A stretch of DNA of 43,704 nucleotides from assembly GCA_027487315.1 (NCBI GenBank), contig JAIYDW010000043.1, positions 1 to 43,704 on the forward strand, given 5' to 3'. The translations under genes were made by a program, and so were the position numbers. This document shows, piece after piece, positions 5,430 through 15,765 of the stretch (positions are counted from its first letter, which is position 1; every line of letters begins with the position of its first letter). The notes under the pieces are model-generated. The model had not been told where the DNA came from. It worked only from the letters and a program-made list of their open reading frames with translations, and searched no databases. The DNA comes from Verrucomicrobiaceae bacterium. GTDB lineage: Bacteria; Verrucomicrobiota; Verrucomicrobiia; Verrucomicrobiales; Verrucomicrobiaceae.

Positions 5430-6395
5430 CTAGCGCCCCATTCGCACCGTCTGACTCGGCTTCTCTCCAAACAGATGCCGATAACTCGCAGCAAAGCGTC
5501 CCAGATGAGACATGCCGTGTTGGAACGCGATGTCGATGATCGGCGCATCACTCACACGGAGTTCGCGGCGAATCGCATTCAACCGCAGCGCCTGAAGGAA
5601 ATCGCGCGGGCTTTGGTCAAAAGTCGAACGAAAGGCATACTCCAGTTCCCTCCGGCTGACTCTCAGCGCCGCGCAGAGATCCGGAATCTGCAAAGGCTCG
5701 CCAAGCTCATCTCGCATCAGCGTCTCCGCGCTTCGAGCCAACCGGGCGCGATTGCGCAACGCCTCCCGCTTTGGAGGCGCCGCCGTCCGTGACTCCCATG
5801 CGGTAATCCCCAGCCCAGTCAACAGACGGGTCGCCTCATTCGCCACCGTTGCCGCCAACGCTGGCTCCTGTTGGGCCCGCCTCAGCCGACTCCTCAAGTT
5901 CATCACCTGCTGAGTCAAATGAGCAAAGGCCGAGGACGTAAAATGGTGCGCCGCCACGCAGCCAAACGCCCCAGCCTCCGGAGACGCCACCCGCCGGCAG
6001 TGCTCCCAAAGCCTGGGAGAAAGGCCCACCGAGAAGCAAAGAAATCCAAGGGTCGTGCATCCATCGATCGGTTCCCCGGGCGGCGTGCACACCATGGTTC
6101 CCGAGGGTGCCTCCAGTCCATACCACGTGGAAGGCGTCGGACTGCACATGATGCCAAGTGAAGCCCAGCCCTTTGGCAGACCGCCGAAAATGCGTGCTCG
6201 CACATGTGCCTCGTGGAAATCAATCGCCCAGCACGGCGACTGAAACTGCTCAATGAGCGTCGGCCGCAACGGGCGAGAGAGAAAGTCGGCCCTCAACGAG
6301 CCCCCTGAAACCGCCACACTGAACTCATCCGGATCATCCAGTCGAAAGGCCGCCTGCCGAAAGGCGGGCGTGAGATGCTGCATCGTGAGGGGCAC
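5430..6395 (-). CDS. AraC-family transcriptional regulator
   Basis: A 321-residue protein with a C-terminal double helix-turn-helix of the AraC type (about residues 225-320): an IPDLCAALRVSRRELEYAF first helix pair, the PRDFLQALRLNAIR linker, and the closing ISHLGRF-like motif (GMSHLGRFAASYRHLFGEKPS). The N-terminal ~190 residues are a sensor domain not recognised precisely. The start is a GTG at 6395 or an ATG at 6383; neither has a Shine-Dalgarno. It is divergent from the sulfatase at 6477 and convergent with the barrel gene ending 5391, so it probably controls one or both sulfatase clusters. Confidence 0.9.
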   Translation of the reverse strand: MPLTMQHLTPAFRQAAFRLDDPDEFSVAVSGGSLRADFLSRPLRPTLIEQFQSPCWAIDFHEAHVRARIFGGLPKGWASLGIMCSPTPSTWYGLEAPSGTMVCTPPGEPIDGCTTLGFLCFSVGLSPRLWEHCRRVASPEAGAFGCVAAHHFTSSAFAHLTQQVMNLRSRLRRAQQEPALAATVANEATRLLTGLGITAWESRTAAPPKREALRNRARLARSAETLMRDELGEPLQIPDLCAALRVSRRELEYAFRSTFDQSPRDFLQALRLNAIRRELRVSDAPIIDIAFQHGMSHLGRFAASYRHLFGEKPSQTVRMGR

Positions 6396-6476
6396 CCACG
6401 GATTGTGCGCAAAATGGATAGAATTTCATCTTCAAAGATGAAAGCCTTCCGCAGCCACCCCCCTCCTCTTCATCCC

Positions 6477-7901
6477 ATGACTCAAATCAACGCCCTCCTG
6501 ACCGCTCTCTGCCTGGCCGTCGCCCTCACAGCGTCAGCCGCGACACAGCCGAACATCATCCACATCGTCGCCGATGACCTCGGCTGGAAAGATGTCGGCT
6601 TCAATGGCTGCACCGACATCAAGACCCCCAACATCGACGCCCTCGCCGCTGGCGGGGCCAAGCTCTCCAACTTCTACGTGCAACCCATGTGCACGCCCAC
6701 CCGCGCCGCCTTGATGACCGGACGCTATCCCTTCCGCTACGGCCTCCAAACCGCCGTCATCCCCTCCGTGTCCGCCTACGGTCTGGACACCGACGAGTTC
6801 CTCATGCCGCAGTGCCTGAAGGACGCAGGCTACAAGACCGCCATCATCGGCAAATGGCACCTCGGACATGCGGACAAAAAATGGTGGCCGAAGCAGCGCG
6901 GCTTTGACTACCAATACGGCGCCATGATTGGCGAGCTGGATTACTTCACCCACAGCGAGCACGGCGTGCTGGACTGGTTCCGCGACAACGAACCCCTGAA
7001 CGAGGAAGGCTACACCACCACACTCATCGGACAGGACGCCGTCAAATACCTCAGCGCTCAGCAGCCCGACAAACCCTTCTATCTCTACCTCACCTTCAAC
7101 GCCCCCCACACTCCCTACCAGGCCCCGCAGGAATACATCGACCGCTACCCCTCCATCGCCGACCCCACCCGCCGCACCTACGCCGGCATGGTCACCTGCT
7201 TGGATGACGAGATCGGCAAAGTCGTCGCCGCCCTGGAGAAACACCAGCTTCGCGACAACACCCTCATCCTTTTCCATAGCGACAACGGCGGCACCAAGAA
7301 CGCCATGTTCGCCGGAGTCATGGCCGACATGTCAAAGGTGAAGATCCCCTGCGACAACGGCCCCTATCGCGACGGAAAAGGCTCGCTGTTCGACGGAGCC
7401 ACCCGCGTCTGCGCCCTCGCCAACTGGCCCGGCAAAATCAAGGCCGGCACCGTGGACGGCCTCATCCACGCCGTGGACCTCTATCCCACCCTGGCGGGCC
7501 TCGCAGGTGCCAGCACGCAGAAATGCAAACCCCTGGATGGCGTCAACGTCTGGGACACCCTCTCCACCGGCGCCCCCTCTCCGCGCAACGAGATCGTTTA
7601 CAACATCGAGCCCTTCCGCGGTGCCGTGCGGCAGGGAAATTGGAAGCTCATCTGGCGCACCCTTCTGCCCTCCAGTGTAGACCTCTACAACCTCGCCGAA
7701 GACCCCTCCGAGACCACCAACCTGGCCGAGCGTCATCCCGACAAAGTCACCGCCATGCAGCAGCGCTTGGACACCCTGGCCAAAGAAGCCGTCAAACCGC
7801 TCTTCCTCACCGACCAATTCAAGGTGGTCATGAAAAACATGGCCGGAGAACCTGTCATGCCCACCGCAGAAGGCTTTGGCGATCCCGACAAAGCCCATTG
7901 A
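6477..7901 (+). CDS. Secreted arylsulfatase B-like (S1 family)
   Basis: A 474-residue sulfatase. The start at 6477 gives a proper signal peptide (MTQINALLTALCLAVALTAS-A); an ATG at 6438 would add 13 residues before it. The metal motif ADDLGWKDVG (32-41) and the formylglycine motif C-T-P-T-R with Cys72 are intact, as are GKWHLGH and SDNGGTK. The pattern is closest to arylsulfatase B/N-acetylgalactosamine-4-sulfatase-like bacterial enzymes; the true substrate is unknown. It probably forms a two-gene unit with the barrel gene 42 bp downstream, under the divergent AraC regulator. Confidence 0.92.
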   Translation: MTQINALLTALCLAVALTASAATQPNIIHIVADDLGWKDVGFNGCTDIKTPNIDALAAGGAKLSNFYVQPMCTPTRAALMTGRYPFRYGLQTAVIPSVSAYGLDTDEFLMPQCLKDAGYKTAIIGKWHLGHADKKWWPKQRGFDYQYGAMIGELDYFTHSEHGVLDWFRDNEPLNEEGYTTTLIGQDAVKYLSAQQPDKPFYLYLTFNAPHTPYQAPQEYIDRYPSIADPTRRTYAGMVTCLDDEIGKVVAALEKHQLRDNTLILFHSDNGGTKNAMFAGVMADMSKVKIPCDNGPYRDGKGSLFDGATRVCALANWPGKIKAGTVDGLIHAVDLYPTLAGLAGASTQKCKPLDGVNVWDTLSTGAPSPRNEIVYNIEPFRGAVRQGNWKLIWRTLLPSSVDLYNLAEDPSETTNLAERHPDKVTAMQQRLDTLAKEAVKPLFLTDQFKVVMKNMAGEPVMPTAEGFGDPDKAH

Positions 7902-9927: not shown

Positions 9928-9950
9928 AACCAGCGCCTCCCTTCCCACAT

Positions 9951-9980
9951 GCAGCCCGACCCCCACAAAGGTCGGGCTGC
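9951..9980 (+). terminator. Probable transcription terminator
   Basis: GCAGCCCGACC (9951-9961) pairs perfectly with GGTCGGGCTGC (9970-9980) around an 8-base loop, 24 bp after the lipoprotein stop. The T-tract is poor (TTGC), so termination strength is uncertain. Confidence 0.65.
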
Positions 9981-10030
9981 TTGCAAATCAATCCCCTGTG
10001 CCCTTCAGGCCAAGAGCCTCCTCTTCACGC

Positions 10031-11731
10031 ATGAAAACCACGCTCCTCACCACCGCGCTCGGCGCCCTCACACTGGTCTCTGGACCGGCTCTCTCCCAAT
10101 CCGCCGACACCATCTACCACGGCGGCTCCATCCTCACCATGGCAGGCAAGGATGCGACGTATGTCGAAGCCCTGGCCGTGAAGGACGGCAAGATCGCCCT
10201 AGCCGGCACAAAAGACGCGGCTCTCAAAACGAAAGGTGACACCACCAAGATGGTGGACCTCGGCGGCAAACATCTGATGCCCTCTTTCATCGATGCGCAC
10301 GGACATTTCATCAACGCCCTCAGCCTCGCCAACCAAGCCAACTGTTACGCCGCACCCTTCGGCGCGGGCAGCACGAAGGAAGGCATCATCGAGGCGCTCA
10401 AAAAAACGAAGGCGGAGAAGAAGATCGCCGATGACGAGGTCCTCATGGGCTACGGCTACGACGACAGCATCTACCCCGATGGCAGCAAACTCACCGCCGC
10501 TGATCTCGACACAGCCTTCCCCAGGCAAGCCGTGATGGTCATGCACGTCTCGCTGCACGGCGCAGTGCTGAACTCAGCCGCCATGAAGAAATACAACATC
10601 AATGCCGCCACGGAGACACCGCCCGGTGGCATCATCGTGCGCAAACCGGGCAGCAACGAGCCCGAGGGCCTTGTCATGGAAACCGCTTACCTCCCCATCT
10701 TCGCACAATTGCCCAAACCCACCCCGGAGCAGGAACTGGAAGCCCTGGTCGGTGGACAGAAAATCTTTGCCGCCGCTGGCGTCACCACCGCTCACGAGGG
10801 TGCGACCCATCTCGATCAGCTCCAGGTACTCCAGCGTGGCGCGAAAGCGGGCAAGCTCTACATCGATGTCATCGCCTTCCCCTTCATCACCGACATCAAG
10901 CCCACCTTGCGCGCCAATCCGCCGGAGACCTTTGGCAAATACATCGACCGCCTCAAGCTCGGCGGCATCAAGGTCACCATCGACGGCTCGCCGCAGGGCC
11001 GCACAGCACACTTCACCACCCCCTATCTCACCGGAGGGCCCGGCGGCGAAAAAGACTGGAAGGGCGAACCCACCTTCCCTGAGCCTGAGATTCGAAAAAT
11101 GGTGAAATTCGTTTATGACCTCAAAGTGCCGCTCATCATCCACTGCAACGGCGACGCGGCGATTGATAACTTCCTCAACGCTCACGAGGCCGCGCTCGGA
11201 GACGCGAAAGCGGGCGATCACCGCAGCGGCATCATCCACTGCCAGTTTGTGCGCAAGGACCAGCTCGACAAAATCGCCGCTTGGAAAATCATCCCATCCT
11301 TCTACACCGAGCACACCTATTTCTACGGCACCACGCACACCAAGCAGCGTGGCAAGGAGCAGACAGACTTCCTCAGCCCGCTGAAGTCCGCTCTGGATCG
11401 CGGCATCATCTTCGGCAATCACACCGACTTCAATGTCGCGCCGATTGACCAGCTCTTCGTCGTTTGGAGTGCCGTCAATCGCATCTCCCGTGAAGGCGAA
11501 GTGATCGGCGCAGACGAGCGCGTCTCCGCCTACGAGGCGCTGAAAGCCGTCACCTGCAACGTGGCCTATTGGTATCGCGAGGAAGCCACCAAAGGCACGC
11601 TCGAAACCGGCAAACTCGCCGACCTCGTCATCCTCGACAAAGACCCGCTCAAGGTCGAGCCCATGGCCATCAAAGACATCAAGGTGCTGGAGACCATCAA
11701 AGAAGGAACGATCATCTACTCCGCCAACTAA
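10031..11731 (+). CDS. Secreted amidohydrolase, YtcJ-like (amidohydrolase family 3)
   Basis: A 566-residue protein; the start at 10031 gives a signal peptide (to about residue 22). The beta-sandwich opening (TIYHGGSILTM) is followed by the metal-binding HxH (DAHGHF, His90/His92), a later IHCNGDAA histidine, a second histidine region (GIIHCQF), the aspartate in GNHTDFNVAP, and the closing GKLADLVILDKDPL strand that is typical of the family. These mark a metal-dependent hydrolase of the YtcJ/amidohydrolase-3 type acting on C-N bonds, here exported. Substrate unknown. The porin gene 35 bp downstream probably supplies it. Confidence 0.88.
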   Translation: MKTTLLTTALGALTLVSGPALSQSADTIYHGGSILTMAGKDATYVEALAVKDGKIALAGTKDAALKTKGDTTKMVDLGGKHLMPSFIDAHGHFINALSLANQANCYAAPFGAGSTKEGIIEALKKTKAEKKIADDEVLMGYGYDDSIYPDGSKLTAADLDTAFPRQAVMVMHVSLHGAVLNSAAMKKYNINAATETPPGGIIVRKPGSNEPEGLVMETAYLPIFAQLPKPTPEQELEALVGGQKIFAAAGVTTAHEGATHLDQLQVLQRGAKAGKLYIDVIAFPFITDIKPTLRANPPETFGKYIDRLKLGGIKVTIDGSPQGRTAHFTTPYLTGGPGGEKDWKGEPTFPEPEIRKMVKFVYDLKVPLIIHCNGDAAIDNFLNAHEAALGDAKAGDHRSGIIHCQFVRKDQLDKIAAWKIIPSFYTEHTYFYGTTHTKQRGKEQTDFLSPLKSALDRGIIFGNHTDFNVAPIDQLFVVWSAVNRISREGEVIGADERVSAYEALKAVTCNVAYWYREEATKGTLETGKLADLVILDKDPLKVEPMAIKDIKVLETIKEGTIIYSAN

Positions 11732-11765
11732 CCTTTCCACACCCCCGCAACCTCCTCTCATCCCG

Positions 11766-13031
11766 ATGATGACCAAAACCATCGTGGCTCTGCTCGTCTT
11801 TGCGGGTTGCATCCCGCTCTTCGCCGGCACCGACGGCAAAAACCCCGGGACATTCACCCCCAATTCAAAGGTCGCTGAACCAGTCGCCGGAAAGCTCACC
11901 GGCGACTGGGGCGGCCTCCGCACCCAACTCGCCGAACGCGGCCTCAGCCTCGACCTCGAATACACCCAGTTCTACCAGGGCCTCCTCTCCGGTGACGGCA
12001 ACGACGACTGGGAATTCGCTGGTCGCGTGGATGCCTTCTTCAATGTGGACACGGAGAAGCTCGGCCTCTGGCAGGGCGGTGGCCTCCGCACCCACACAGA
12101 ATATCGCTACGGTTCGTTGCCCGGCTTTCGCGGAGGTGCCCTCTGGCCCGTCAACACCGGAGCCACGCTTCCCCTCGGCGGCGGCGATCAAATCGTCGCC
12201 TCCTCCATCTTCCTCACCCAATCCATCGGCAAAAACGTCAACCTCATGGTCGGCAAAATCAACGCCGTGGACCTCCTCGCCTCCGACCCCTTTTTCGGCG
12301 GCTGGGGCATTCACCGCTTCCAAAACATCGCCTTCGTCGCGCCCCCCAGCGGCGTCGTCCCACCCACCATCATGGGCGCCATCGCCAGCATCAAAACCGC
12401 CCCCATCACCTGGACCCTCATGGCCTTCGATCCCAACGATCGCACCAACGACTACTGGCCCGATGACCTCTTCGACGACGGCATCAACCTCTCACTCGGC
12501 GCCACCTACGTCGGCAAACTCGCCGGCCGCACCACCATCTACAACCTCACCGGCACCTACAGCACCAAGGACGGCGCCAACCTCGGCGAACTCCTCCTGC
12601 CAGCCGACCTCAAGACCGGCACCATTGATGGCGCCTACAACGTCAGCTTCCAGTTCTCCCACTACCTCAAACAGCACAGCGAGCGTCCCGGCGACGGCTG
12701 GGGCCTCTTTGTCAAAGGCGCACTCGCCGACGGCAATCCCAACCCCATCCAGCGCAGCATCATCGCCGGCATCGGCGGCAAAGGCCTCCTCCCCTCGCGT
12801 CGCGATGACACCTTCGGCATCGGCTACTTCTACTACAACTTCAGCGACGCCCTTCAGGACTCCCTGAACACACGCGTCAATCTCGATGACGAGCAAGGCC
12901 TCGAAGTCTTCTACAACCTTTCCCTCACCCCCTGGTTCAGCATCGGCGGCGACCTCCAAGTCATCGATCCCGCCCTCGGCTCCAACCAAGTCGCCGTCAT
13001 CGCCGGCCTCCGCGCCACCGTTTCCTTCTAG
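11766..13031 (+). CDS. OprB-family carbohydrate-type porin
   Basis: A 421-residue protein with a signal peptide (to FAG-T, about residue 20). The motif LTGDWGGLRTQLAERGLSLD near the N-terminus is the family signature of OprB porins, and the protein ends in F (LRATVSF) as outer-membrane barrels do. OprB porins pass sugars and other small solutes. It shares a likely transcript with the amidohydrolase. Two methionines open the frame (11766 and 11769); the first is listed. The TAG stop is also the first bases of a palindromic repeat. Confidence 0.9.
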   Translation: MMTKTIVALLVFAGCIPLFAGTDGKNPGTFTPNSKVAEPVAGKLTGDWGGLRTQLAERGLSLDLEYTQFYQGLLSGDGNDDWEFAGRVDAFFNVDTEKLGLWQGGGLRTHTEYRYGSLPGFRGGALWPVNTGATLPLGGGDQIVASSIFLTQSIGKNVNLMVGKINAVDLLASDPFFGGWGIHRFQNIAFVAPPSGVVPPTIMGAIASIKTAPITWTLMAFDPNDRTNDYWPDDLFDDGINLSLGATYVGKLAGRTTIYNLTGTYSTKDGANLGELLLPADLKTGTIDGAYNVSFQFSHYLKQHSERPGDGWGLFVKGALADGNPNPIQRSIIAGIGGKGLLPSRRDDTFGIGYFYYNFSDALQDSLNTRVNLDDEQGLEVFYNLSLTPWFSIGGDLQVIDPALGSNQVAVIAGLRATVSF

Positions 13032-13157
13032 ACCGGTTCCCGAAAAGATTGTCATTTTGATCCGGCGAGCGCAGCGGCTTCAGTGGCAAGCGGCTAACGC
13101 AGCCAATGAGGCCACTCCGCCGCTGGGCAAGGTGACAAGCATTTCGAGAGTCGGTTA
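13029..13157. repeat. Palindromic intergenic repeat, copy A
   Basis: A ~129-bp element that begins in the porin stop codon (TAGACCGG) and ends in a degenerate inverted copy (CGAGAGTCGGTTA). Its interior, from TTTTGATCCGGCGAGCGCAG to GTGACAAGCATTTCGAGA, is nearly identical to copy B at 15595. Such small, ORF-less elements with inverted ends resemble MITEs or REP-type repeats. It may also serve as a terminator. Confidence 0.8.
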
Positions 13158-13248
13158 ATTCACTTGCCGCCCATTGATCCCCCCTCATTTCTCGGCATGA
13201 TAGGTCTGCTTCCAAAAAGAAATTCCCGACAAAACTCATCTCCCAATC

Positions 13249-15591
13249 ATGAAACGCTCATCGCCCATCAAACTCATGCTGACAGCTCTCGGGCTCGCAA
13301 TCATCCCCAGTCAAGCGCAGGAAGTCTTGCCCCGTCCAGAGCAACCTTTCAAAGGTAAGATCGGCCGCATCACCCAGGACTCCGTCAAAGACTTCCCCAA
13401 AGCCGTGGAGGCACCAAAGGGTGCACCGAACGTGCTCGTCATCCTCACCGATGACGTTGGCTTCGGCGCTTCCTCCACCTTCGGCGGCCCGATTCCCACC
13501 GCGACCATGGATCGCCTCGCCAAGAATGGCCTGCGCTACAATCAATTCCACACCACCGCGCTCTGCTCGCCCACCCGCGCAGCGCTGCTCTCCGGACGCA
13601 ATCATCACAGTGCCAACACAGGTGTGATCATGGAAGCAGGCACCGGCTTCCCCGGCTACAACAGCCTGATGTCAAAGAGTTGCGGCACCTTTGCCGAAGT
13701 GCTGAAGCAGAACGGCTACAACACTTCCTGGTATGGCAAGAACCACAACGTCCCCGATTGGCAGTCCAGTGCCGCCGGTCCCTTCGACCTGTGGCCCACC
13801 GGATTGGGCTTCGAATACTTTTACGGCTTCATCGGTGGCGACACCAGCCAATGGAACCCGGCCATCACCGAAGGCACCAAACCCATCGAACCGCCGCATG
13901 ATGCGAAGGACTACTTCTTCGACAAGGACATGGCCGACCGCACGATCCACTGGATTCGCATGCAGCACGCGACAGCTCCCAACAAACCCTTCCTCGCCTA
14001 TTACGCCCCCGGCACCGCCCATGCGCCGCACCACGCGCCGAAAGAATGGATCGCGAAATTCAAAGGTCAGTTCGACCAAGGTTGGGACAAGGTACGTGAG
14101 GAAACCTTTGCCCGTCAGAAAGCGGCAGGCCTCATCCCTGCGGATGCCAAACTCACCGAACGTTCCGCTGGCATCCCCGCCTGGGACAGCCTCAACGCCG
14201 ACCAGAAAAAAGTCTATGCCCGCATGATGGAAGTCTATTGCGCCGCGCTCGCCCATTGCGATCACCAGATGGGCCGCGTGCTCGATGCCATCGAGGCCCA
14301 GGGCGAACTCGACAACACGCTCGTCATCTACATCCAGGGCGACAATGGCGCGAGCGGCGAAGGCGGCCTCCAGGGACTGCTCAACGAAATGACCTTCTTC
14401 AATGCCATCCCCGAGGACTTCAAGGAAGTCATGCGCCGCATGGATGAACTCGGCGGACCCAACACCTTCAACCACTACCCCGTCGGCTGGGCACACGCCA
14501 TGGACACGCCCTTCCAGTGGGCCAAACAAGTGGCCTCCCACTTCGGTGGCACCCGCAACGGCCTCGTCATTTCCTGGCCCGACCGCATCAAGGACAAGGG
14601 CGGCATCCGTTCGCAGTTCCATCACGTCATCGACATCATGCCCACCATTCTCGAAGCCGCCGGCGTGCCCGCGCCGACGAGCATCAACGGCGTCACCCAG
14701 AAGCCCGTCGAAGGCGTGAGCATGGTCTATTCCTTCGACGACGCGAAGGCGCCCTCGAAACGTCAGACCCAGTATTTCGAAATGCTCGGCAACCGTGCGA
14801 TCTATCACGACGGCTGGGTCGCCGCCACCACACCACCGACCCCGCCCTGGTCCAGCTCCGGCGGCAATGTCGCCGTGCTCGATTATCAGTGGGAACTCTA
14901 TAAGATCACCGAAGACTTCTCCCAGTCGAACAACCTTGCAGCCAAGGAGCCCGCCAAGCTCAAGGAACTCCAGGATCTGTTCTGGGTGGAAGCAGAGAAA
15001 TACAACGTTCTGCCGATTGACAACAGCAAGGTCGAACGCCTCGACGTCACCAACCGCCCCAGCCTCACCGCAGGGCGCGACACGTTCACCTATTTCCCCG
15101 GACTCGTCCGCATTCCTGAAGGTGCCGCACCCGACACCAAGAACAAATCATGGCGCATCGAGGCGGAAGTGGTGATTCCTGAAGATGGAGCCGAGGGCAT
15201 CATCCTCACCCACGGCGGACGTTTCGCAGGTTACGGTTTCTATCTGCTCGAAGGCAAACCAGTCTTCTGTTACAACCTCGCAGGCGTTGCCCATTACTAT
15301 GTCAAAAGTGATGAGAAGCTCAGCCCCGGCAAACACACCCTCGTTTACGACTACAAACATGACGGCGGTTTGGGCAAAGGCGGCACCGGCACCATCGAAG
15401 TGGACGGCAAGTCCGTCGGCTCCGCACGCATCGATCGCACCCTGCCGTTCCGTCTTTCGCTGGATGAAACCCTCGACTGCGGCGAGGACACCGGCACTCC
15501 CGTCTGCGAGGATTACGTCAAGAAGATGCCCTTCAAATTCACCGGTGAACTCAAACAGGCCGTCATCAAGCTCATCGCAGCGCCGAAGTAG
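13249..15591 (+). CDS. Large arylsulfatase with C-terminal jelly-roll-like extension
   Basis: A 780-residue sulfatase with a signal peptide (to about residue 23). It has the DD metal pair (LTDDVGFG, 68-69), the formylglycine motif C-S-P-T-R with Cys106, and QGDNGAS for the second metal side. Pattern and length fit the long Pseudomonas AtsA-like arylsulfatases (S1_4). The last ~150 residues (from [10 protein letters not shown]) look like a beta-sandwich, common in this subgroup. It stands alone between two copies of the same palindromic repeat, 92 bp after copy A and 3 bp before copy B. Substrate unknown; secretion and maturation are expected as for the other sulfatases. Confidence 0.93.
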
Positions 15592-15594
15592 CCA

Positions 15595-15761
15595 AGACCG
15601 GTTCTCGAAAAGAGGGTCATTTTGATCCGGCGAGCGCAGCGGCCTCAGTGGCAAGGAAGTCGCGCAGTCCCCTATTAAATCAATAGCGGACAAGCGCCTG
15701 ACGCGGCCAATGAGGCTGCTCCGCCGCCGGGCAAAGTGACAAGCATTTCGAGAATTGGTCT
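15595..15761. repeat. Palindromic intergenic repeat, copy B with insertion
   Basis: A 167-bp element in the same orientation as copy A. Its ends AGACCGGTTCTCGAAA (15595-15610) and TTTCGAGAATTGGTCT (15746-15761) are inverted repeats matching at 14 of 16 positions. Relative to A it has about 39 extra bases after GTGGCAAG, flanked by CAAG on both sides and containing CTATT-AAATC-AATAG. Confidence 0.85.
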
Positions 15762-15765
15762 AACA

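Follow-up and report, generated by a model that had tools for sequence, protein, structure and literature searches.

Two insertions of a palindromic MITE with IS630-like ends bracket a sulfatase gene in a Verrucomicrobiaceae bacterium

INTRODUCTION

RUP of Streptococcus pneumoniae is a non-coding element of 107 bp that is present in about 100 copies and inserts at TA, and its terminal repeats match those of IS630-Spn1, which is the logic of its assignment (PMC2229807). Correia/NEMIS of Neisseria is a short MITE with TA ends, whose transcript forms a stem-loop that RNase III has been suggested to cleave (PMC2229807). In Coxiella burnetii, the MITE QMITE2 lies at the 3' end of a gene and, in one strain, lengthens the EnhC protein (PMC5896051).

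The element described here, which is non-coding, about 165 bp long and nearly wholly palindromic, with inverted repeats at its ends and a TA at either flank, was found at a locus of a Verrucomicrobiaceae draft genome (G000; 5.87 Mb) where two copies, A and B, bracket a sulfatase gene. Like RUP with IS630-Spn1, it is small, non-coding and multi-copy, carries terminal repeats matching an IS630 and inserts at TA; unlike RUP, it has the length given above and is an almost full-length palindrome, and only relatives yielded an IS630 partner for it. With Correia/NEMIS it shares the form of a short MITE, TA at the ends and a stem-loop, a likeness at the level of description. The host and ends of Correia/NEMIS differ from those of the Verrucomicrobiaceae element. 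As with QMITE2, a MITE at the 3' end of a gene affects the stop of the protein, but where EnhC is extended, the present element restores the stop at its original place. A literature search found no such element described for Verrucomicrobiaceae.

RESULTS

The window, i.e., the whole stretch of DNA analyzed, comprises 43,704 nucleotides. On its plus strand, an OprB-family carbohydrate porin gene (11766..13031) is followed by copy A (13031..13155, with flanking TA at 13029-13030 and 13156-13157), the sulfatase gene (13249..15591; Pfam Sulfatase, 1e-60) and copy B (15596..15760), which is full length, with its right TA at 15761-15762 and its left TA decayed to AA (15594-15595). The initial annotation was right in describing two direct, nearly identical copies with inverted ends that enclose exactly one gene. 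Aligned in the same orientation, A and B match over 61 bp at 93% and 69 bp at 87%, with about 39 central bases missing from copy A; this 39-bp deletion has a GGCAAG direct repeat on either side, and copy A is also short of one base at its right end. Both copies have inverted ends, and each folds back over its full length (copy A, DNA z of −5.7; copy B, RNA −101 kcal/mol, z of −10). The window contains the 21-nt core of the repeat two times, where 0 occurrences are expected, and an Rfam search of the window returned no match.

The central deletion of copy A is also carried by the copy at G000:C136:8656 (L002 1501-1628), which could reflect either recurrent slippage between the GGCAAG repeats or transposition of the short form itself. 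Another copy, in a congener (G003:C53; L191 2633-3142), has about 340 bp inserted at the hairpin loop. As for the bracketed gene, it is one of three sulfatase genes of unequal length in the window, the others lying at 729-2231 and 6375-7898, and further sulfatases occur elsewhere in the genome, e.g., three within 9 kb on contig C237; this multiplicity suggests that the host is a degrader of sulfated polysaccharides.

A genome search for further copies, as the initial annotation had proposed, recovered about 48 (46-50 alignments, some of which represent one place on both strands), and the end pattern of the element was found at 99 sites in the genome versus 3 for a control pattern. In the alignment of full copies, the left end reads TA-GACCGGTTCTCGAAAAGATTGTC and the right end is its imperfect inverse, with TA flanking. 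The element also occurs in the same-genus genomes G001 and G003, at up to 98% identity, and in several g8 genomes, at up to about 85%. When 84,980 species genomes were scanned for the exact 20-base end, all 40 of the 40 stretches retrieved belonged to Verrucomicrobiaceae, including Prosthecobacter debontii. TA is retained at both sides in 42 of 65 distinct sites. Comparison of empty and filled sites across species gave five usable cases, three of which fit a 2-bp duplication of TA (or a decayed TA), while two empty sites had no clean TA; these comparisons support duplication of the 2-bp TA target upon insertion. For copy B, no site that predates the insertion was found. Folding 51 elements jointly gave a weak consensus, with two-sided changes in 7 of 21 pairs, compared to 1-5 with partners slid, and for this reason nothing is claimed from compensatory base pairing. 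REP/REPIN sequences with a Y1 (RAYT) transposase, which are palindromes of 20-40 bp without target duplication, were rejected as an identity for an element that is about 165 bp long and duplicates TA.

The ends point to an IS630 partner. The first 25 bases of the element are identical at 20-25 of 25 positions to IS630 ends in five relatives (G025, G068, G007, G013 and G031). In G031 the left end of the IS630 equals the MITE consensus (25/25), and the transposase is in pieces. G025, itself a carrier of the MITE, has an intact IS630 transposase of 345 aa (NCBIfam IS630, 202 bits against a cut-off of 100; DDE_3 domain) within an element of 1129 bp; the ends of this element start with TAGACCGGTTCTCA and match 21-23 of 25 bases of the MITE. 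Beyond about 25-30 bases the similarity between MITE and IS630 fades, which is what mobilization of a MITE via its ends predicts. Given its palindrome of about 165 bp, the flanking and duplicated TA, and ends matching the IS630 of relatives, we assign the repeat as an IS630-derived MITE.

A transposase with the same ends, which the initial annotation suggested looking for, was found in relatives, the intact gene being in a genome (G025) that also has the MITE, but not in G000. A search of the draft genomes G000, G001 and G003 for an IS630 or DDE_3 transposase found none. Insertion sequences are often lost from draft assemblies. From the matching ends, mobilization would have occurred in trans by this IS630 lineage: an IS630 (Tc1/mariner-like) transposase would recognize the 25-bp ends and place the element into TA dinucleotides, with duplication of the TA. 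The transposase is presumably absent from this genome today. An IS4/IS5-type transposase (PF01609) was considered as mobilizer and rejected, as none was found in G000 and none was bracketed by these ends in relatives; a PF01609-type gene in G001 merely has an ordinary MITE nearby.

Copy A lies within the OprB stop codon. The TAG stop (13029..13031, plus strand) consists of the target TA and the first G of copy A, and it is restored because the element starts with G directly after the target TA. Both congeners have TAATTCAC, the sequence that should stand on the right side of the copy A site when it is empty; copy A would have entered a TAA stop and replaced it by TAG, the OprB stop probably being TAA before the insertion. 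At a second site, the protein end is identical in two genomes, with TAA in G000, where the element is missing, and TAG in G003, where it is present. As TA plus the first G stands at both ends of the element, a TAA or TAG stop on either strand would become TAG when the element enters it, with the protein unchanged.

Such placements were frequent in a retrieved subset of loci, on which the insertion statistics rest. Among the 42 sites with both TA intact, 15 lie in stop codons, 16 are intergenic and 11 fall in called open reading frames (ORFs), compared to 254, 1664 and 9886 background TAs, respectively. The odds ratio for stop codon versus intergenic sites was 6.1 (p = 3e-6), and 4.5 (p = 0.001) within the preferred YTAR context; these effect sizes are provisional, since genes were called roughly, as the longest ORFs of at least 300 bp. 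Copy A is not counted among the 15, because, with one base gone from its end, it did not pass the automatic test. The enrichment may reflect either a preference for such targets or the survival of insertions that do no harm. We regard it as possible, though on balance doubtful, that the ends make the MITE harmless in stop codons, with the hairpin forming the transcript's 3' end, and that copies have accumulated there beyond the supply of TA. A literature search on insertions into stop codons found nothing on point among the hits listed, which does not prove that such reports are absent.

It is also conceivable that retention of the elements is mainly due to a putative function at transcript 3' ends, as terminator-like or RNase-cleaved hairpins. 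The hairpin is very stable, placement at gene ends is frequent and includes one site at which both convergent genes stop inside the element, and nine sites are common to more than one species. Most of the sampled sites, however, were not seen shared, and selection against insertions inside genes accounts for the same placement, so that we consider such a function unlikely to be the main reason for their retention.

The neighborhood of copy A differs in the congeners. A 3.2-kb block (9928..13154) consisting of an amidohydrolase gene (10031-11731), the OprB gene and copy A is absent from G001 and G003; its right edge coincides with the right end of copy A, and TAA or TTAA is common to both edges. 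These features could be read as those of mobile cargo inserted here, with the outer end of copy A as one boundary. Against this, no element end is present at the left edge, OprB adjoins related sulfatases in G019 and G007, and in G048 the amidohydrolase gene precedes the sulfatase in the same orientation. Furthermore, G001 retains a C-terminal remnant of OprB (G001:C15; L148 14269-14376) with 91% DNA identity to window positions 12922-13015, located downstream of copy B and behind a different N-terminal sequence. Because of these neighbors and the remnant, it is likelier that the G001/G003 line lost the block, at the shared TAA, than that the block was inserted here, and the block is probably an old neighborhood that disappeared from that line; its arrival as cargo is quite improbable. 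On the other side of the sulfatase, the interval between copy B and a DEAD-box helicase gene, which is only about 140 bp in the window, holds a MazE/PIN-domain toxin-antitoxin pair in G003 (G003:C75; L147 5024-5655).

The sulfatase itself has kept its position. G003 and G001 have it at 98-99% protein identity, and in both congeners the same short gene lies immediately upstream of it (junction CTATTAATTCAC) and copy B comes after its stop codon, while copy A is absent. Copy B would have inserted right after the sulfatase stop at a time before the split of the congeners. Of the empty sites that the initial annotation suggested looking for in relatives, with one repeat and no sulfatase, G001 and G003 are no examples: they have one repeat, B, and keep the sulfatase. 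Nor are A and B particularly alike, with 88.9% identity versus a mean of 87.7% over pairs in G000, and as mutual matches each ranks about 46th-50th of 90. With 48 copies in the genome, about one neighbor pair within 2.6 kb is expected by chance. It is extremely improbable that A and B are joint ends of a composite mobile unit that brought the sulfatase here, as might be read from exactly one gene bracketed by two copies in the same orientation, since two congeners keep the gene in the same place but have only copy B beside it, so that ends and cargo are not jointly absent as in a composite transposon, the likeness of A and B is no higher than average, and chance supplies one such close pair.

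Altogether, copies A and B very probably stem from separate, independent insertions of a single non-autonomous MITE derived from IS630, with the sulfatase bracketed by chance. The gene, conserved in its place in congeners, is a bystander, and it was not moved by A and B, both being independent insertions of a mini-transposon of about 48 copies. From the initial annotation, the suggestion of MITE-like ends holds, as these are IS630-type MITEs, and that of a gene moved by repeats does not, in view of the congener loci, the average likeness of A and B and the chance of such pairing.

DISCUSSION

The element is an ordinary IS630-type MITE, of a kind already known, in a host group that is new for it. 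Its one unusual trait, which is of mild interest, is the habit of lying in stop codons.

The analysis corrects a tempting but false view of repeat-flanked genes as moved cargo. For Verrucomicrobiaceae, it yields a recognizable MITE together with its likely IS630 partner, and the enrichment in stop codons offers a small, testable case in which the end sequence of a transposon can make its insertion harmless.
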